This document shows positions 49,080 through 58,832 of a DNA stretch of 64,000 bases, piece after piece. The DNA is from Tsukamurella asaccharolytica (GTDB lineage Bacteria; Actinomycetota; Actinomycetes; Mycobacteriales; Mycobacteriaceae). The stretch is taken from positions 1 through 64,000 of the forward strand of contig NZ_VIGW01000010.1 of assembly GCF_007858435.1 (NCBI RefSeq), in the 5' to 3' direction. The stretch's first letter is position 1, and each line of letters starts with the position of its first letter. The notes beneath the pieces are model-generated. The model saw only the letters and a program-made list of their open reading frames with translations, made no database searches and had not been told where the DNA came from. Both the position numbers and the translations under genes were made by a program.

Positions 49080-49886
49080 CTACCCGAAGACGCCGCGCGG
49101 CGGCATAGGAGACTCCTGTGCGTTCGCGCTGGTGAAAGGCTTCGCGCCGCCCACGAACCGGGTCACCTCGCCGCCGGAGAGCAGGGTCCCCGGGAACGGG
49201 TCGCCCGCCAGCCGCCGGGCCAGCCCGTCCGGCACCGCGCCCGCCACGACGACCAGGTTCCCGAACCGCCGGCCCTTGAGCACGGCGGGCTCCGCGGCCA
49301 CGGCCACAGTGCCCCCGGTCGATGCGCCGAAGACCTCCGCGACCGTCGCGATCACCGACCTGGCGAAGGCGAGCGGCGGACCGTCGGCGACGTTGAGCGC
49401 GACCACCGCCCCCGGGGCGAGCAGGGGTTTCAGCGAGGCGAGGAATTCCGACGTGGTCAGGCCGGACGGGGTGCGCGCCCCGGCGAAGACGTCGACGACG
49501 AGCACCTCGACGGTGCCGAGCATTCCGGGCGGCAGCACGGTGGCCGCGAGCGCGGCGTCGGCGCAGCGGATCTTGATCTGCTCGCGCTTCGGGAGCGGCG
49601 CCGCGGCCCGGACGGCGTCGATGAGCGCACGGTCGACTTCGAGCACCTGCTGCCGCGAACCGGGCCGGGTGTGCGCGATGTAGCGGGGCAGGGTGAAGCC
49701 GCCGCCGCCCAGGTGCACGGCGGTGACGGGGACGCCGGGCGGCCGCGCCAGGTCGATCACGTGGCCGATCCGGCGCACGTACTCGAAGACCAGGTTGGTC
49801 GGGTCGCCCGTGTCGATGTAGCTCTGCGGCGTCCCGTCGAGGAACACCGTGAACGCACCGGGCCGGTCGCGATCGGCTTCGATCAC
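49080..49886 (-). CDS. Spermidine synthase-like protein
   Basis: A 268-residue protein with a Rossmann-type methyltransferase fold of the spermidine synthase family. It shows QSYIDTGDPTNLVFEY, the VTAVHLGGGGFTLPRY dinucleotide loop (SAM/dcSAM site), and VLEVDRALIDAVR. The DVF segment replaces the catalytic D-x-x-D of true aminopropyltransferases in part, so polyamine synthesis is uncertain; many actinobacterial members have no proven reaction. It lies 44 bp after glcB on the same strand. Its stop overlaps the promoter of the next gene. The GTG start lacks a good ribosome site. Confidence 0.8.
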   Translation of the reverse strand: MIEADRDRPGAFTVFLDGTPQSYIDTGDPTNLVFEYVRRIGHVIDLARPPGVPVTAVHLGGGGFTLPRYIAHTRPGSRQQVLEVDRALIDAVRAAAPLPKREQIKIRCADAALAATVLPPGMLGTVEVLVVDVFAGARTPSGLTTSEFLASLKPLLAPGAVVALNVADGPPLAFARSVIATVAEVFGASTGGTVAVAAEPAVLKGRRFGNLVVVAGAVPDGLARRLAGDPFPGTLLSGGEVTRFVGGAKPFTSANAQESPMPPRGVFG

Positions 49887-49930: not shown

Positions 49931-52132
49931 TCAGCTGTTCGCGGCCTTGTACTCGCGACGGCGCGCGTGCAGGATCGGCTCGGTGTACCCGTTCGGCTGC
50001 GTGCCGCCGAGCAGGATCAGGTCCTTCGCGGCCTGGAACGCGATGTTGGTGTCGAAATCCGGCGCCAGCGGGCGGTAGTCCGGGTCACCGGCGTTCTGCT
50101 GGTCGACGACCGGCGCCATGCGCTTGAGCGCGTCGATGACCTCCGCCTCGGTGACGACGCCGTGGCGCAGCCAGTTCGCGAGCAACTGCGACGAGATGCG
50201 CAGCGTCGCGCGGTCCTCCATGAGGGCGACGTCGTGGATGTCCGGGACCTTGGAGCAGCCGACGCCGGCGTCGATCCAGCGGACCACGTAGCCGAGGATC
50301 GACTGCGCGCTCTCGTCCAGCTCTTCGCGCTTCTCCTCCTCCGACCAGTTCGCGTTCTTCGCGAGCGGGATGGTGAGGATGTCGTCGACCGACGCGGGAT
50401 CGCGCTTGGCGATCTCGTTCTGCACCTCGAAGACGTCCACCAGGTGGTAGTGCAGGGCGTGCAGCGTCGCGGCGGTGGGCGAGGGCACCCACGCGGTGGT
50501 CGCGCCGGCCTTGGGCTGGGCGATCTTCTGCTCGAGCATCGCGGCCATGAGGTCGGGCATGGCCCACATGCCCTTGCCGACCTGGGCCTTGTGCTGCAGG
50601 CCCGCGTGCAGGCCGATGTCGACGTTGCTGTCCTCGTACGCGGGGTACCAGGTCTGGCCCTTGAGCTGGCCCTTCCGGACGATCGGCCCCGCCACCATCG
50701 AGGTGTGGATCTCGTCGCCCGTGCGGTCCAGGAAGCCGGTGTTGATGAACACCACGCGGTCGTTCGCGGCCGCGATCGCCGCCTTGAGGTTCACCGACGT
50801 GCGGCGCTCCTCGTCCATGATCCCCATCTTGAGCGTGAGAGCGGGCAGGCCCAGCAGCTGCTCGACGCGGGCGAAGATCTCCGCGGCGAAGGCCACCTCC
50901 TCGGGGCCGTGCATCTTCGGCTTCACGATGTACACCGAGCCGGTGCGGGAGTTGCGGATCTCGCCCGAGAGGCCGTGGATGGCGATGAGCGAGGTGACGA
51001 TGCCGTCGAGGATGCCCTCGCCGATCTCCTCGCCGTCCAGCAGGATCGCGTCGGTGGTCATGAGGTGGCCCACGTTGCGGACGAACAGCAGCGAGCGGCC
51101 GTGGAGCACCAGCTCCGAGCCGTCGGTCGCGGTGTAGACGCGGTCCGGGTTCAGGGTGCGGGTGAAGGTCTTGCCACCCTTGCTGACCTCTTCGGCGAGG
51201 TCGCCCTTGTTCAGTCCCAGCCAGTTCCGGTAGCCCAGGACCTTGTCGTCGGCGTCGACGGCCGCGACCGAGTCCTCGAAGTCCATGATCGTGGTGACCG
51301 CGGACTCCACGAGCACGTCCTTGACGCCGGCACGGTCGGTCGAGCCGATCGGCGACGCGGCGTCGATCTGGATCTCCAGGTGGAGGCCGTTGTGGCGCAG
51401 CAGGAGGCCGGTCGGCGCGGTGCGCTCACCGGTGTAGCCGACGAAGGCCGAGGGATCGGCTAGGCCGACCGAGGCGTCCTCGCTGGAGCCGGACGCCCCC
51501 TTGACGGTGGCGAGGAGCTCGGCGCCGTTGATGCGGTACTCGACGACGTCGACGTGCGAGCCGGACTCGAGCGGGACGGCCTGGTCGAGGAAGTCCTTGG
51601 CGAAGGCGATCACCTTGTCGCCGCGGACCTTGTTGTAGCCGGGCTTGCCGCCGGGCGCCTTCTCGGCGCCGTCGGCCTCCGAGATGGCGTCGGTGCCGTA
51701 GAGGGCGTCGTACAGCGAGCCCCAGCGGGCGTTAGCGGCGTTGATCGCGAAGCGGGCGTTGAGGATCGGGACGACCAGCTGCGGGCCGGCGGTGGAGGTG
51801 ATCTCGGTGTCCACGTTCGCCGTGGTGATCTCGCGGTCCTCGGGTACCGGCACCAGGTAGCCGATGTCGGTGAGGAACTGCTTGTACGCCGGGAAGTCGG
51901 TGATCTCGCCGGGAGCGGCGGCGTGGTACTCGTCGATCTTCGCCTGCAGCTCGTCGCGCGTGGCGAGGAGCGTGCGGTTCTTCGGGGCCAGATCGCCGAT
52001 CAGCTGCGCCGCGCCCGCCCAGAAGGCGTCCTGATCCACACCCGTGCCCGGAAGCGCCTCGTCGTTGATGAAATCGTAGAGGACCGTCGCGACATCGAGG
52101 CCGGCGACGGACGTGCGGGCGGTATCGGCCAT
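49931..52132 (-). CDS. glcB: Malate synthase G
   Basis: A 733-residue malate synthase G, which joins glyoxylate and acetyl-CoA to malate in the glyoxylate shunt. The size fits isoform G. Conserved regions include [18 protein letters not shown] near residues 270-290, [14 protein letters not shown], and the [10 protein letters not shown] and [17 protein letters not shown] parts around the active site, plus the C-terminal [14 protein letters not shown]. The start follows a GAAGGGTTG-like site. It corresponds to Rv1837c. No isocitrate lyase is in the window. Confidence 0.97.
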
Positions 52133-52169
52133 GGCTGTGTCAACCCTTCGTCGAGAAGCAGTACGACCA

Positions 52170-53912
52170 TCAGGTTACTCCGCGCGCGATCGCCGCCGAC
52201 GCCGGGACCACCTGGCCGAAGTCCAGTTTCACCAGCTGGTCGGCACGGTCGAAGTACCTGTCGTCATGGGTGATCACCACGACTGTCTTCCCCCGTGTCC
52301 GCAGGTCCGGGATGATCCGGTCGTAGAAGACGGCGCGGAATCGCGGGTCCTGGTCGGCGGCCCACTCGTCGAACAGGTAGACGGGGCGGTCCTCCAGGAG
52401 CGCCGTGAGCAGCGCGAGCCGCTTGCGCTGCCCCGTCGACAGCGCGAGGGTCGAGAGTTTCCCATCCTGAACGCTGACGGCGTGCGCCAGCTCCAGTTCG
52501 TGCAGCAGTCCGCGCACCCGGTCGTCCAGGTCGTCCGCGGCGAGACCGAGGTAGTCGTCGAACAGGTGGAAGTCGGAGAACACCGCGGTGGTGTGCTGCC
52601 GGAACCACTCCGTGTTCTGCGGGCCGATCGGCTCGCCGCCGGCGCGGATCTCGCCGATCCGCGGCGCGTACAGCCCGCAGATGAGCTTGGCCAGCGTCGA
52701 CTTGCCGCTGCCGTTGCCGCCGACCACGAAGGTCACCTCGCCGGGGCGCAGCGTGAGGTCGACGGGGCCGAGGCGGAAGCCGTGCGGGGCGCCCGGCGGG
52801 GGTCCCTGGGGAGGGTGCGGCGGCGGGCCGCCGGGGCCCCTGTGGCCGCCGGGGCCGCCGGGCGGCGGATGGCCGGGCCCCTGCGCCCCGGGCGGAGGCT
52901 CGGGGAGGTACTCGTAGCCGACGCCCCGCAGTTCGATGGTGCCGTCGCCCACGGGCCGCCCGTCGTAGGGCAGCACCGACTCGTCGCGCGGGGTCTCCAG
53001 GGAGAGGTCGAGGCCCCGGATCTTCGCGAGCGCGACGTCGCCGCGCAGCAGGTCGGGGATGCGGTGCAGGAGGCTCTGCATGGGCATCGACAGGAAGGTC
53101 GTGACCAGCACGTAGCCGATCATCGTCTCCCGTGGCAGCTCCATCGCCCGGGCGAGGACGAACAGGATGAGCACCATCGTGCCCAGCTGCAGCACCTGCC
53201 CCAGCGCCTGCCCGCCGGCGAACCGGCTCCCCGCGGCGACGTGCTTGCGGCGCAGGTCCTCGGCGGTGCCGAGGAGCTTGCGGTCGAGGAAGTCGCCGCG
53301 GCGCGCGCGGTGCAGTTTGAGCTCCTTGACGCCCTGCGTGACCTCCTGGAACGAGCCGATGAGCGCGTCGTCGAGCTCGCGGGCCCGGCGGTAAGTCTCC
53401 CGCACCCGCCGCAGCACCGTCTCCACGCAGGCGATGCCGATGAGGGTGCCGGCCACGGAGACCGCGAACAGCGGGCCCGAGACCGTCGCGAGGTAGGCCA
53501 GTGCGCCGATGATCGTCGCCAGGTCGATGCACAGCCCCGGGATGCCCGAGACCGCCATCGACAGGGAGCGGACGTCCTCGGTGAGCGTCGCCAGCAGCCG
53601 GTGATCGCCGAGCCGCTCGATGTGCTCGAGCGGCGCCGCCAGCACCCGCTGCGACAGCCGCGCCCGCAGCCGGTAGACGGCCGCCTGCGCGAGGTGCAGC
53701 AGGATCAGCTGCGAGGTCACGCCCGCCACGACCACGACGACGGCGGTCAGCACGAACCGGGTGACGGTGACCGTCGGCATGGGGCCCGGCGCGACCAGGC
53801 CGTTGATGAGGGTGAGCAGGTAGGCGTTCGCGGCACCGGCGATGAGGCCCGCGACCACCGCCGCGGCGATCGCCGCCGGCGAGATCGACAGCAGGAACCT
53901 GAAGAGCTTCAC
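52170..53912 (-). CDS. SyrD/PvdE-type ABC exporter (membrane and ATPase domains)
   Basis: A 580-residue half-transporter of the cyclic-peptide/siderophore exporter family. Six helices lie in about 1-310. The ATPase has GGNGSGKST (Walker A, near 395-403), the divergent signature LSTGQRKRL, Walker [12 protein letters not shown] and switch ITHDD; the DEWAADQDP form is typical of SyrD-like exporters. An insertion of about 38 residues made of Pro, Gly and His lies between the first ATPase strand and Walker A (near 342-380). It sits 7 bp downstream of the type III PKS gene and probably exports its product or a precursor. Confidence 0.9.
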
Positions 53913-53919
53913 GGCGCGC

Positions 53920-55101
53920 TCACTCGCCGCCGGTCACGACGTCGAAGAGGAAGCCCTCGACGGTCACGCCGGGCGCGAAGGAGAAGGCCATGCCGGTCTG
54001 CGGCGACCCGTCGGACTGGCCGCCGGCACCGTCGTGGACCTGGGACAGGAGCCGCTCGAGGACGAACAGCAGAGAGACGCTGAGCATGTTGCCGTGCTCG
54101 GCCAGCACCCCCCAGCTCGTCCGGGAGGCCTCGTCGGGCAGGCCCAGCGCCGCGGCGGCGGACTCGATGATCCTCGGGCCGCCGGGGTGGATCGCCCAGT
54201 GCGCGATGGCCTCGCGGCCGAGCCCGTTGCGGCGCAGCACCTCGTCGACCACGGGCGCGACGCCGTTCACGATGTACTGCGGCAGGGACTGGGCCAGCTC
54301 GCACGTGATGCCGTTGGCGTTGACGCCCAGCACGATCCCGTCCTCGGCGCCGTCGAGCAGGTGGGTGAAGGTGTCGCGCACGACGATGCGGCCGGCCGCC
54401 AGCGGGTGCCCGACCTCGCTGGCGCCGATGAGGGCGGCGCCGCAGCCGTCGGCGAACAGGCTGGAGATCACTACGTCGTTCGGCTCGCCCGAGAGGACGG
54501 CGTTCACCGAGCTCAGTTCCAGGCAGATCAGCAGCGACTTGCGGTCCGGGTGGGCGCGCACGTAATCGGAGGAGACGCGCAGCGCGTTCATCGCCGCGGC
54601 GCAGCCCATGAAGTTGATGACCACGCGGCTGGTCTGCGGCGCCAGGCCGAGGGCGCGGATCACCGCGACGTCGACGCCGGGCGCGAGGAAGCCGGTACTG
54701 GTGACGAAGACCAGCTGGCCGACGTCGGCGGGCTCGAGATCGCCGAGCGCGCGGCGGGCGGTCTCGATCGCCAGCGGCGCGGCGTACTCGTAGAACAGGT
54801 CCATGCGCTCGCGGACGGTGTCCGGGCGGGTGCTGAACTCCGCGAACTCCGGGGTGAGCGGGTCGATCGCGAGGTGCCGCTCGGCGACCCTCGTCTTGGC
54901 GTAGACGCGCCGGATCCGCTCGGCCTGCGCCGGGTCGCCGAACCGCGCTGCCACCCGGTCGGCGGACTCGGCCTGGCCGTGGACCTGCGCGGGCGACCCC
55001 GTCGCGAGCGCCTCGATCACCGCGACCGAGGTCGGCGGCGCCGGCGGCGCGCCGAGCCAGGCCTGCCGGGGCAGAACGGTCTGCTGCTCCGTGGTGTTCA
55101 T
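53920..55101 (-). CDS. Type III polyketide synthase (Pks18-like)
   Basis: A 393-residue chalcone-synthase-fold enzyme. The catalytic triad is complete: C167 (NFMGCAAAMNALR), H305 (WAIHPGGPRI) and N338 (EHGNML). Such enzymes extend an acyl-CoA with malonyl-CoA to pyrones or resorcinols. M. tuberculosis Pks18 takes long-chain acyl-CoA to make alkylpyrones, and that gene lies beside a b5-desaturase gene (Rv1371), the same pairing as here. The product is therefore likely an alkylpyrone or alkylresorcinol lipid, by inference. The ATG has a GGAGATC site, and the gene begins 10 bp after the desaturase stop. Confidence 0.93.
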   Translation of the reverse strand: MNTTEQQTVLPRQAWLGAPPAPPTSVAVIEALATGSPAQVHGQAESADRVAARFGDPAQAERIRRVYAKTRVAERHLAIDPLTPEFAEFSTRPDTVRERMDLFYEYAAPLAIETARRALGDLEPADVGQLVFVTSTGFLAPGVDVAVIRALGLAPQTSRVVINFMGCAAAMNALRVSSDYVRAHPDRKSLLICLELSSVNAVLSGEPNDVVISSLFADGCGAALIGASEVGHPLAAGRIVVRDTFTHLLDGAEDGIVLGVNANGITCELAQSLPQYIVNGVAPVVDEVLRRNGLGREAIAHWAIHPGGPRIIESAAAALGLPDEASRTSWGVLAEHGNMLSVSLLFVLERLLSQVHDGAGGQSDGSPQTGMAFSFAPGVTVEGFLFDVVTGGE

Positions 55102-55111
55102 GGTGATCTCC

Positions 55112-56758
55112 TTACACCGTGCCGATGCCGGTGAAACCGGCGACGACGTACGAGCCCGAGGTCTTGAGCGCCTCGGGCGAGAAGTGCTCGCGGAAGAAGC
55201 CGTGGCCCTGCTCCTGCGCGGGCCGCGCCTTGCTGCCGAGGAAGGTGCGGACCTGGTCCGGCAGGCGGTCGAAGAAGAAGCTGCGGCGCGGCAGCCATTC
55301 CACGCCGAACTTCGCGGCCTCCTCGGCCATCAGCTCCTCGGTGGCGATGTTGGCGAAGCCGCTGCGCTGGTAGGGCAGGACGTGGTGCACGCGGTGGCTG
55401 GACAGGCCGGCCGAGAGGAAGCAGTCGACGTACCGATTGCCCGAGATCCGCAGGTCGTAGGCCTGGTTGAGCTGGTTCACCGCCCAGTCCTCGGTCTCGA
55501 TCTCGGGGAGTTCGTCGACGTCGGTCTCGAAGTCGTGGCTCGCCACCACGAGGAACGTGCTCACCCACAGCACGGCCACGAACTGCGCGACCCATGCCCA
55601 GACGTCGCCGAGGAACAGGAACAGGAAGAACTCGCCGATGAGCAGCGCGCGCATGGCGAAGGCCCCGACGAAGTGGGGGAGCGCGCCGCGGAGCGACCCG
55701 TACATGTCGGCCACCCCCACCTGGCGGGTGAGTTTGACGATCTCGAACAGCCGCATCGTCATGCCCGTCGCGGTATGCCCGAACTTGTGCAGGGTATGGA
55801 TCGGGATCCGGTACCAGCGTGGGATGTCCATCATCATGGTGAAGACGTTCTTCTTGATATCCACCTCGCTCTGCGTGTGCGGGTGATGCAGTAGCGCGTG
55901 GCCGTCGGCCGTCACGAAGGACAGGGCGACGTAGTTGATGTCGAAGGCGTTCACCAGCACCTTCGTCGCGCCCTTCTGCGCGCGGTGGATCGCGTAGTGG
56001 CCGAAACCCGCGAGCGAGCTGCGCAGGATCACCATGAGTAGCACGAACAGCCAGATCGGCATCCACGACGGCACGCTGAGCCGGGTCGCGATGACCACGA
56101 CGTAGGCGACGGCCAGCGCCGCGGCGGCGACGTTGAACCAGCGGTCCATCCGCTGGATGCGCGCCCTCATCGCGGGATCGCGCAGTCTTGCCTTCACGGC
56201 GTGCAGTAGGTCCTTCGGATCGTCGAATCGGTAGCGCGGGGTGTCGCGCCAACTGTCGAAGCCGTCCTTGAAGAGGAACGCGGGGGCATTGTTCTTCGGG
56301 TGCACGTCCTCGACGCGGGCGTCACGGTCGAGCGCGAACCGTTCCAGCATCTTCTCGATCTTCTCGGGATTCGCGTGATACGAGCCGATGATCGACGTGA
56401 TGTCACGATTCTTGGACCGACCGATGAAGAATTCCCCGCCCGGATGCTTGTTGATCCATTCCGAGAGATCGTAGGCGCGGCCTTTGTAAATCCAAACATT
56501 CGACAACTGTGGTCCCCCGCCGGGACCGGGTTCGCGCCCCAGATCGCGCGGCCCGGGGTCGCCGCTCTCGGTCTCGAAATCGCGGCCGCGGGGGCCCGCG
56601 GGGCGGCGGCCGGGATCACTCTCGGCGGGACTGGAAGCATCGTCCTGACCTGCGCCGCCCCCGCGCCCCGGGTCGGTGCCGCGCTCAAGGTCGCGGGGGC
56701 CGGGATCGGCCGCGCCGCGCCCGGACGGCGCCCGTGGCGGGGTGGAATTGATCGACAC
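55112..56758 (-). CDS. Cytochrome b5-fatty acid desaturase/hydroxylase fusion (Rv1371-like)
   Basis: A 548-residue membrane enzyme. Residues 1-82 are disordered and contain DPGPRDL twice (18-24 and 67-73). A cytochrome b5 domain follows (about 84-150) with heme ligands H105 (HPGG) and H128. The desaturase domain has four to six helices and histidine boxes HYAIH (254-258), HALLHHPH (287-294) and HRVHH (455-459), which bind a di-iron centre. It introduces a double bond or hydroxyl into an acyl chain. It starts the leftward three-gene set with the PKS and exporter, and its ATG is 241 bp from the divergent lipoprotein gene. Confidence 0.93.
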   Translation of the reverse strand: MSINSTPPRAPSGRGAADPGPRDLERGTDPGRGGGAGQDDASSPAESDPGRRPAGPRGRDFETESGDPGPRDLGREPGPGGGPQLSNVWIYKGRAYDLSEWINKHPGGEFFIGRSKNRDITSIIGSYHANPEKIEKMLERFALDRDARVEDVHPKNNAPAFLFKDGFDSWRDTPRYRFDDPKDLLHAVKARLRDPAMRARIQRMDRWFNVAAAALAVAYVVVIATRLSVPSWMPIWLFVLLMVILRSSLAGFGHYAIHRAQKGATKVLVNAFDINYVALSFVTADGHALLHHPHTQSEVDIKKNVFTMMMDIPRWYRIPIHTLHKFGHTATGMTMRLFEIVKLTRQVGVADMYGSLRGALPHFVGAFAMRALLIGEFFLFLFLGDVWAWVAQFVAVLWVSTFLVVASHDFETDVDELPEIETEDWAVNQLNQAYDLRISGNRYVDCFLSAGLSSHRVHHVLPYQRSGFANIATEELMAEEAAKFGVEWLPRRSFFFDRLPDQVRTFLGSKARPAQEQGHGFFREHFSPEALKTSGSYVVAGFTGIGTV

Positions 56759-56928
56759 TTCTCGTTCCTCCTGAACGCTTCCGAATCGGCCGTTGGGTAG
56801 ACCGTCCCCGATGACGCTAATGGATCACTGAAGATGCACTTGCCGCTACCTCCAGTTGTCCGTTTTGTTCCGAAACGGCGCGGAAGAGGGGGTCGACCGC
56901 CTCCGGAATTCATGCATACTTCATCGTG

Positions 56929-56949
56929 AAGGGCGGGGCTTCCGCCCTT
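56929..56949 (+). other. 8-bp hairpin in the lipoprotein gene leader
   Basis: AAGGGCGG (56929-56936) pairs with CCGCCCTT (56942-56949) around a 5-nt loop and is followed by T and CATT. A CATACT -10 candidate is at 56914-56919. The hairpin would start the transcript about 50 nt before the ribosome site and could stabilise or attenuate it. The other 170 bp of the divergent gap show nothing certain. Confidence 0.4.
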
Positions 56950-56999
56950 TCATTCGGCTCCGGGCGATTCCGCCCGGACTGATTCACAGGGGGGAACCC

Positions 57000-57821
57000 A
57001 TGAATGTCAAGGCATCGCGGGCGGCCGTAGCGCTGCTCGCCGCCGGCGCGCTGGTGCTGACCGGCTGCGCTGATAAGAAGTCCGACGACAGCGGCACGAC
57101 GACCGCGACGGCCGCCGCTGCGGGCGGCGCGTCCGGCTCACCGACGGCCGCGCCCTCGGTCGACGCGAGTGGACTGCCCACCGTCCAGATCGTGAAGGAC
57201 GCGGCCCTGGCCACTCGGGAGACCTACTCGGAGCACCTGACGCTCGCCGTCGACAAGGGGATCCAGGGTCTGCCCGTCACCAGCGTCACGGGCGACATCA
57301 TCTCCTTCAAGGACACCAAGCGCGTTGCCGCACAGGGCGACGCCAACGTCCGGGTGCAGGACAACTACGTCCAGACGAAGTTCGTCGTGATCGACGGGGT
57401 CATGTACGCCAACCTGGGCGGAGCCAAGTACCAGCCGATGGGCAAGACGGGCGAGAAGGGCGTCTACGATCCGGCGATCATCCTGGACCTGGAGAAGGGC
57501 CTCGCGAAGATCCTCGACTCGGTGCAGAACCCGAAGGTCGACGGCAAGGACACCGCCAACGGGCTCAAGACCGTCAAGGTCACCGGCACCGTCGCCACGC
57601 AGGTTCTGGACCCGCTCCTGCCGCAGATCACCGACATCGCCACCCGCGGCAACGCCGGCACGTCGCTGCCCATCACGCTGTGGATCGTCTTCGACCCGTC
57701 GGCGAACCCGCAGCCCAAGCCGAACGTGACGCGGATGGAGGTCAAGCTGAAGGAACTGCCCATCACGCTGAACCTCACCGACTTCGGCAAGGACGTGAAG
57801 ATCACCAAGCCCGCCGGCTGA
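57000..57821 (+). CDS. LppX/LprG-family lipid-carrier lipoprotein
   Basis: A 273-residue lipoprotein. The lipobox ends at C22 (LVLTGC), followed by a Ser/Thr/Ala-rich linker to about residue 58. The mature domain is the LppX_LprAFG fold, with YVQTKFVVIDGVMYANLGG and YDPAIILDLEKGLAKIL. Members carry lipids such as PDIM, triacylglycerol or lipoglycans across the periplasm to the outer envelope. It is divergent from the desaturase-PKS-exporter set, so it may transport the lipid they make; that link is inferred. The ATG has a strong GGGGGA site. A perfect terminator hairpin follows. Confidence 0.9.
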   Translation: MNVKASRAAVALLAAGALVLTGCADKKSDDSGTTTATAAAAGGASGSPTAAPSVDASGLPTVQIVKDAALATRETYSEHLTLAVDKGIQGLPVTSVTGDIISFKDTKRVAAQGDANVRVQDNYVQTKFVVIDGVMYANLGGAKYQPMGKTGEKGVYDPAIILDLEKGLAKILDSVQNPKVDGKDTANGLKTVKVTGTVATQVLDPLLPQITDIATRGNAGTSLPITLWIVFDPSANPQPKPNVTRMEVKLKELPITLNLTDFGKDVKITKPAG

Positions 57822-57926: not shown

Positions 57927-58832
57927 CTAGCCGGACGATGCGGGGGGCTCTCCGGGGCGCTCGTCGGGCCAGGATCGGACCACCGCGAGGAGTCGTTCGC
58001 GGATCGGCGCGGCGCGCTCGGCGAGCGCCGCCTGCTGCCGGACGTACTCGCGGCGACCGTCGGCGGTCTCGATCGGGATGGGCGCGAAACCGTGCTCGGC
58101 GAGATCGTAGGGGCTCGCCCGCATGTCCAGCTCGCGGGCGTCGCGGGCCAGGTCGAAGGCGTCCGCCACCAGGTCCGACGGTGCGCCCGGGGTCAACTTG
58201 AACGCCCATTTGTAGAGGTCCATCCCGGCGTGCAGGCAGCCGGGCTGCTCCGACCCGACCTGGGTCTCGCGGGTGAGCTCGGTGGCATTGCGGGGGACCG
58301 CATCCGGGGTGAAGAAGCGGTAGGCGTCGTAGTGCGTGCACGTCAGTTGTCCCGCGCGGACGACTTCGTCGGTGCCCGTCGGGCCCAGGCGCAGCGGCAC
58401 CGGGTGACGGGCCTGATCGGCCTCGCGGTAGACCATGGCCCACTCGTGCAGGCCGAAGCAGCCGAACACCGGCCGGCGCGCGGCGGTGGCCCGAAGGAGC
58501 CGCGCGACGTATTGCGCGGTGCCGGCGCGCTTGGCGAGAACGGCCGGATCCTGGGTCACGTGCGTCCCCGCGACGGCGTAGCCCCGGACCCCGCCGAATT
58601 CTTCCGCCGCCCGCGGCCCGACGAGCTGGGTGCCGAGCCCGGGATGCCAGCGCAGTAGGTGCGCGGGGCGGTGCCCGTAATAGGTGAACAGGAAGTCCCA
58701 GACAGGGTGCTTCTCGCCGCGCGCCGCGCGCTGCCGGTGTGCGGCGACGAAGGGGCTGAGCCGATCCCGGTGCGCGGCCGCGAGCGGCTCCCACTGCCCG
58801 TCGGTCAGGGTGCGAAGACCGGTACCGCTCAC
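57927..58832 (-). CDS. Conserved protein commonly annotated as 3-methyladenine DNA glycosylase
   Basis: A 301-residue protein known in many actinobacteria, often under the name 3-methyladenine DNA glycosylase. It has HPVWDFLFTYYGHRPAHL, FGCFGLHEWAMVYR, THYDAYRFFTP, QPGCLHAGMDLYKWAFKL and LDMRASPYDL. I see no helix-hairpin-helix or AAG/AlkA motif, so the glycosylase name is doubtful and the function is best called unknown. The many conserved His, Asp and Cys residues suggest an enzyme. Its start overlaps the following CNNM gene's stop by 4 bp. Confidence 0.8.
   Translation of the reverse strand: MSGTGLRTLTDGQWEPLAAAHRDRLSPFVAAHRQRAARGEKHPVWDFLFTYYGHRPAHLLRWHPGLGTQLVGPRAAEEFGGVRGYAVAGTHVTQDPAVLAKRAGTAQYVARLLRATAARRPVFGCFGLHEWAMVYREADQARHPVPLRLGPTGTDEVVRAGQLTCTHYDAYRFFTPDAVPRNATELTRETQVGSEQPGCLHAGMDLYKWAFKLTPGAPSDLVADAFDLARDARELDMRASPYDLAEHGFAPIPIETADGRREYVRQQAALAERAAPIRERLLAVVRSWPDERPGEPPASSG

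Follow-up and report, generated by a model that had tools for sequence, protein, structure and literature searches.

How a long-chain lipid built by a type III polyketide synthase (PKS) might travel from the inner membrane to the mycomembrane is the question raised by a four-gene locus of Tsukamurella asaccharolytica, which lies in a 64,000-nucleotide stretch of contig NZ_VIGW01000010.1 (positions 1 to 64,000, hereafter the window; the host genome comprises 4.12 Mb in 81 contigs). An earlier note, made from the sequence alone, had proposed that a cytochrome b5-fused desaturase, a complete type III PKS and a SyrD-like ATP-binding cassette (ABC) exporter, all encoded leftward, form with a divergently encoded lipid-carrier lipoprotein a dedicated route from lipid synthesis to the envelope. 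The four genes are present as claimed, their coordinates and strands and the short gaps of the leftward array (10 bp between desaturase and PKS, 7 bp between PKS and exporter) all being borne out. We consider that they form one module that would make, modify, export and carry a long-chain type III polyketide lipid, a reading to which we assign a probability of roughly one half (0.52); the interpretation of the earlier note is partly supported, and conservation of the module strengthens it, whilst product, export and lipid binding stand as predictions.

Conservation of the set was read from two samples. The first consists of 80 named loci, the top-ranking of 186 PKS relatives, so that close PKSs are favoured; these comprise by title 46 Nocardia, 18 Mycobacterium, 6 Tsukamurella and 10 others; in addition, 401 genomes of the family Mycobacteriaceae were searched by PKS similarity alone (E <= 1e-80), yielding 60 places in 58 positive genomes and 343 genomes without the PKS, and the 59 places other than that of the window were read with their flanks, some on contigs common to the 80 named loci. 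Among the named loci the desaturase lies beside the PKS without exception (80/80), the exporter is present in 62, absent from 17 and cut by a contig end in one, and the lipoprotein occurs in 76, is cut by a contig end in three and is lacking from one. In the family survey all four genes are kept together at 44 of the 59 PKS places, with the lipoprotein divergent in 28 and on the same strand in 16; the relatives therefore do not show the scattering of the genes that the earlier note had named as refuting its proposal. The desaturase adjoins the PKS at 53 places, and incomplete arrangements combine lipoprotein, desaturase, PKS and sulfotransferase with no exporter (five places), exporter, desaturase and PKS with no lipoprotein (two) or with the lipoprotein side cut by a contig end (two), or a truncated PKS and exporter with no desaturase (one). 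Full sets are found in Tsukamurella (g1), Gordonia (g9), Nocardia (g28), Williamsia (g83) and Antrihabitans (g88). Antrihabitans stalactiti carries two copies of the locus (L043/L121 and L079/L124), one of them without the lipoprotein.

When neighbouring genes were clustered over 81 loci (the 80 named loci and the window), only the four families exceeded 18 loci (58 to 80), in a procedure based on codon composition that recovered the PKS in 71/81 and the exporter in 58/81, below the tblastn counts. The next commonest family occupies 18 loci, all Mycobacterium, and rarer families, of 15 loci at most, cross genera, for example one in 14 loci of Nocardia, Gordonia and Antrihabitans. The surroundings themselves differ, with malate synthase and an HlyC-like gene in Tsukamurella and beta-lactamase-like and pyrimidine genes in mycobacteria, as judged from their sequences. 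Since these surroundings change between genera, the four genes move or are maintained as one block, and their recurrence in changing surroundings at the 44 places rules out a chance neighbourhood.

The distribution of the genes across genomes points the same way. Absence was examined in 28 of the 343 PKS-less genomes: the desaturase was found in none of the 28 (E <= 1e-30, four positive genomes matching in the same search), nor was the exporter (E <= 1e-50, with no more than 48 candidates per genome scored and no positive genome in that search). In another search the same exporter query matched in 6 of 10 genomes, each time as a single copy; five of these copies adjoin the PKS, and the remaining one, in the Tsukamurella genome G003, is cut by a contig end. 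G003 is also the only one of the 16 Tsukamurella genomes examined in which the PKS was not seen; loss of the PKS was considered for it and judged improbable, since exporter and desaturase each end at contig ends (L086, L146) and an assembly gap is likelier.

Within Mycobacterium the exporter alternates with a sulfotransferase. In all 17 readable named Mycobacterium loci (L076 is cut) and at five of the six Mycobacterium places of the family survey, some contigs belonging to both sets, there is no exporter and the PKS is followed by a sulfotransferase gene; taken over exporter-less loci that keep the desaturase, the sulfotransferase follows the PKS in 17/17 named loci and at 5/5 survey places. 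Among the named loci that have the exporter, 56 extend for 3.5 kb or more downstream, and 55 of these are without a sulfotransferase; none was seen at the 49 exporter-bearing survey places, some of which have short flanks. The exception, L067 of Mycolicibacterium arenosum, holds, in this order, lipoprotein, desaturase, PKS, exporter and sulfotransferase (Pfam Sulfotransfer_1). In a PKS tree obtained by a quick method with midpoint root, the exporter-less rows fall on one side of a branch with a Shimodaira-Hasegawa-like approximate likelihood ratio (SH-aLRT) support of 98, and together with the exporter-bearing mycobacterial L061 and L067, long rows whose place is unsure, they form a set of 20 with support of 100. 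Exporter loss in Mycobacterium is probably one change on this tree, the simplest reading being a single loss after arrival of the sulfotransferase. The titled Mycobacterium species are, we assume, slow growers. One Mycobacterium genome, G228 (g27), holds both versions, with the exporter beside one PKS locus only; of its two loci (L135 and L136), one has the exporter and no lipoprotein nearby, the other the lipoprotein and a sulfotransferase.

The pairing of PKS and desaturase does occur in M. tuberculosis (pks18 and Rv1371), as the earlier note had stated, but the lipid-carrier lipoprotein, which the note did not know as joined to that pair, is no novelty by position, since lprF neighbours it there. 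The M. tuberculosis array lprF-Rv1371-pks18 (Rv1372)-Rv1373 holds the same type of lipoprotein, the desaturase and the PKS in the order of the window, but lacks an ABC exporter, its PKS being followed by a sulfotransferase; moreover, the lipoprotein of the mycobacterial loci examined runs in the same direction as the array, whereas that of the window is divergent. In the extracts of the publications drawn on here and below (cited by PMC number), lprF:Rv1371 appears as a named intergenic region of M. tuberculosis (PMC9363015), and IS6110 is placed upstream of Rv1371, after Rv1368 in a gene list (PMC4236100); the lipoprotein is thus known as a partner by position, parted from Rv1371-pks18 by IS6110. 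The rv1371/2/3 genes are reported as co-transcribed in BCG (PMC13141999). The M. marinum cluster mmar_2189-2193 resembles the window in having a desaturase followed by a PKS (MMAR_2190, the pks18 ortholog; PMC8730385, PMC5916927), but carries two sulfotransferases and a methyltransferase where the window has the exporter; biofilms of that species contained O-methylated C12 and C16 triketide pyrones (PMC8730385). In the open-licence literature we found no paper drawing a link between lprF and pks18 or a type III PKS, and no report on the exporter, whose joining to a pks18-type pair the earlier note had likewise not known from elsewhere, on the exchange of exporter and sulfotransferase, or on the four-gene module.

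The four products were assigned as follows (Table 1). The PKS has both chalcone/stilbene synthase domains (Chal_sti_synt_N and Chal_sti_synt_C) and a Cys-His-Asn triad that is kept throughout the alignment (Cys167 in 81/81 rows, His305 in 81/81 and Asn338 in 80/81), and the enzyme looks intact. Its top solved relatives are 7cb3 (479 bits), which we presume to derive from M. marinum MMAR_2190, and pks18 in entry 1ted (458 bits), the next, 4b0n, reaching 281 bits; identity is 56-61% to the mycobacterial members among the matches listed, and the nearest named PKS is that of T. ocularis (89%). Residue 197, which aligns with Pks18 Cys205, is Ser in the window and either Ser (62) or Cys (19) in all 81 rows, and the entry 1tee, which we take to be a mutant, has Phe there. 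The triad aligns with Pks18 Cys175/His313/Asn346, Cys205 is described as an acyl-tunnel position, and Pks18 converts C6-C20 acyl-CoA into tri- and/or tetraketide pyrones (PMC6274091). Amongst solved type III PKSs the window enzyme is closest to Pks18 and the presumed MMAR_2190 entry, and alkylpyrone synthesis is its most likely predicted activity.

The lipoprotein belongs to LppX_LprAFG (142 bits against a cut-off of 24), so that the family named in the earlier note stands; its nearest solved relative, however, is LprF (120.6 bits) rather than LprG (76 bits), and we assign it nearer LprF than LprG or LppX. Its predicted fold is LprF-like and the lipobox cysteine is invariant in 28 rows. The open reading frame list begins the gene at a TTG at 56856, whilst the ATG at 57000 opens the signal peptide and lipobox.

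The exporter scores 391.5 bits against the TIGR01194 (cyclic peptide export ABC transporter) model, for which the curated cut-off is 286.2, in agreement with the SyrD-like assignment; Pfam finds ABC_tran and ABC_membrane, and the Walker A, signature, FDEWAADQ and THDD motifs are kept in a 63-row alignment. Its Pro/Gly/His-rich linker of about 44 residues (approximately window 52779-52910) is where the tblastn matches of several homologues break. In the desaturase both Cyt-b5 and FA_desaturase are over their cut-offs, as expected of the b5-desaturase claimed, and these domains recur in 31/31 and 29/31 homologues, respectively; the HPGG heme motif and the histidine boxes H254xxxH258, H287xxxH291H292 and H455xxH458H459 are invariant (31/31 rows), giving an eight-histidine pattern with HxxHH as third box. 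Desaturase residues 1 to about 85 (window 56504-56758) are a low-complexity Gly/Pro/Arg/Asp segment modelled with a predicted local distance difference test (pLDDT) score below 50.

Table 1. Features of the four-gene locus, in window coordinates.
Feature	Position	Strand	Basis
SyrD/PvdE-type ABC exporter half-transporter, 580 aa	52170..53912	-	membrane domain, Pro/Gly/His-rich linker, ATPase domain
Pks18-type type III polyketide synthase, 393 aa	53920..55101	-	Pfam; 7cb3 and 1ted/1tee top in PDB
Cytochrome b5-fused desaturase-family membrane enzyme, 548 aa	55112..56758	-	Cyt-b5 and FA_desaturase; HPGG and His boxes
Divergent intergenic region, leftward array / lipoprotein gene	56759..56999	.	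68-88% DNA identity in other Tsukamurella loci
LprF-type lipoprotein, 273 aa, lipobox Cys23	57000..57821	+	PF07161 LppX_LprAFG

In the mechanism that we propose, the b5-desaturase-family enzyme would act at the inner membrane, placing a double bond (or a hydroxyl) in an acyl chain. Long-chain acyl-CoA would be elongated with malonyl-CoA by the Pks18-type PKS and closed to a ring, an alkylpyrone being the most likely outcome. The SyrD-type half-transporter, working as a homodimer, would use ATP to carry this amphipathic product through the inner membrane, and LprF, anchored on the periplasmic face, would receive it in its hydrophobic cavity and pass it on in the direction of the mycomembrane, much as LprG handles triacylglyceride delivered by Rv1410. 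At Mycobacterium loci with a sulfotransferase in place of the exporter, the product would probably be sulfated and leave by another route. The strongest analogue of the putative export route is Rv1410-LprG, in which Rv1410 extracts triacylglyceride from the inner membrane for delivery to the LprG cavity, a dedicated transporter thus being paired with a lipoprotein of LppX/LprG fold that takes the extracted lipid (PMC10576003). The likeness is one of working only: the Rv1410 system has a major facilitator superfamily (MFS) transporter, LprG and no lipid-making enzymes, whereas the window transporter is an ABC protein, and thus no member of the Rv1410 family, and its lipoprotein is of LprF type.

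Structures are available for both Pks18 and LprF, which to our knowledge have no settled biological role; a conserved exporter joined to both would give them a concrete one, with LprF as carrier of the Pks18 lipid. In its wider form the proposal would be an ABC-driven mycomembrane export route for a Pks18-type lipid, with LprF receiving this non-peptide lipid from a SyrD-family exporter, and an ancestral pks18 locus that was rewired in the Mycobacterium line, including the tuberculosis type, by exporter loss and sulfation. This we advance tentatively, at rather less than even odds. The alternation of exporter and sulfotransferase would also mark a specific change of lipid fate within Mycobacterium, and Tsukamurella, Gordonia and Williamsia offer places in which to study the exporter-bearing form.

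Several observations weigh against a single making-and-carrying module. Five of the 59 PKS places, all in Nocardia (g28), have the PKS alone, with neither a partner nor a sulfotransferase, and the same tally includes two PKS places without a lipoprotein nearby; the window lipoprotein is itself transcribed divergently from the array; and the exporter is dispensable in Mycobacterium, since all four g27 genomes that have just one PKS locus are without a copy. A fold search with the desaturase model gave no match at E <= 0.001, the model being poor (pLDDT 63.6). The TIGR01194 family name refers to cyclic peptides, and its exporters have peptides or lipopeptides as known substrates. In BCG, the extract describing a comparison of the rv1371/2/3 knockout with the complemented strain reports slight lipid differences and names no product, and its authors, seeing no change in colony form, argue against a structural wall lipid (PMC13141999). 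The lack of partners and sulfotransferase suggests a separate role for the Nocardia group of PKSs (L138, L140-L143; 54-57% identical).

Three other explanations were weighed. If the desaturase-family enzyme were a hydroxylase, its hydroxyl would be sulfated in mycobacteria and the hydroxylated product exported in the exporter-bearing genera; the module would still make a polyketide lipid, but a polar one that is perhaps a secreted signal or surfactant and not a building block of the mycomembrane. Di-iron enzymes of the desaturase fold include hydroxylases, the third box is HxxHH and not the QxxHH of front-end desaturases, and a sulfotransferase follows the PKS in the exporter-less, desaturase-keeping loci, counted above from partly shared contigs; the BCG extract also mentions differential polar bands in the negatively charged lipid fraction (PMC13141999). 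Pfam, however, assigns 29 of the 31 members to FA_desaturase and none to a hydroxylase family, and a pyrone enol or resorcinol hydroxyl could take sulfate without any hydroxylase, so that we regard this explanation as unlikely. It is distinctly unlikely, in our estimation, that the lipid of PKS and desaturase stays in the inner membrane whilst the ABC protein has another export substrate or flips an ordinary lipid and LprF serves as a general lipid chaperone or as a sensor. Some loci with PKS and desaturase do lack the exporter and some the lipoprotein, and LprF is said to be linked to the KdpD sensor, but the exporter is absent from the 28 PKS-less genomes (in G003 only its end is seen, cut at a contig end) and the lipoprotein stands beside the pair at 49 of 51 judgeable places with the desaturase.

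The family of the exporter prompts the remaining explanation, that it is a self-protection or peptide exporter hitch-hiking with the operon and that the pyrone made is not an envelope lipid but is secreted and antibiotic-like. Its SyrD/PvdE/YojI relatives, which belong to the same family by the curated cut-off, serve peptides or lipopeptides, whereas here it is encoded together with a type III PKS, a desaturase and a lipid carrier; no peptide synthetase is among these three partners, the wider flanks not having been scanned for one. A near-universal PKS in Tsukamurella (15/16, the sixteenth probably an assembly gap) suits a core envelope trait, and the LprF-type partner has the predicted fold of a lipid carrier. 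We consider such a pyrone highly improbable, and a TIGR01194-family exporter a reasonable carrier for an amphipathic alkylpyrone under the proposed export module.

Two named loci appeared to place the module beyond the family, and horizontal transfer to Kitasatospora (L016) or Acidobacteriaceae (L058) was not upheld: both carry the module, but their titles look misassigned, L016 matching G389 (Williamsia, g83) and L058 matching G007 (Tsukamurella). Frameshifts that split several neighbouring genes in Tsukamurella sp. PLM1 (L006) are taken as assembly errors. In the divergent intergenic region, which has 68-88% DNA identity to its counterpart in other Tsukamurella loci, a promoter scan found no sigma-70 consensus site (0 promoter-like sites), and terminator-like sites in the same scan numbered 2 against 2.2 expected. 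A 301-aa gene (window 57927-58832) adjoins the lipoprotein gene and is kept in Tsukamurella loci, with no Pfam or NCBIfam match. On the other side, the malate synthase gene (window 49931-52169), which we take to be glcB, lies 3' of the exporter, has the same direction and begins 37 bp past it; the same order is found in five named Tsukamurella loci (L002-L006) and not in L071. Beyond it, window 49080-49886 encodes a stand-alone spermidine-synthase-like protein that matches the C-terminal part of fused MFS/spermidine synthases.

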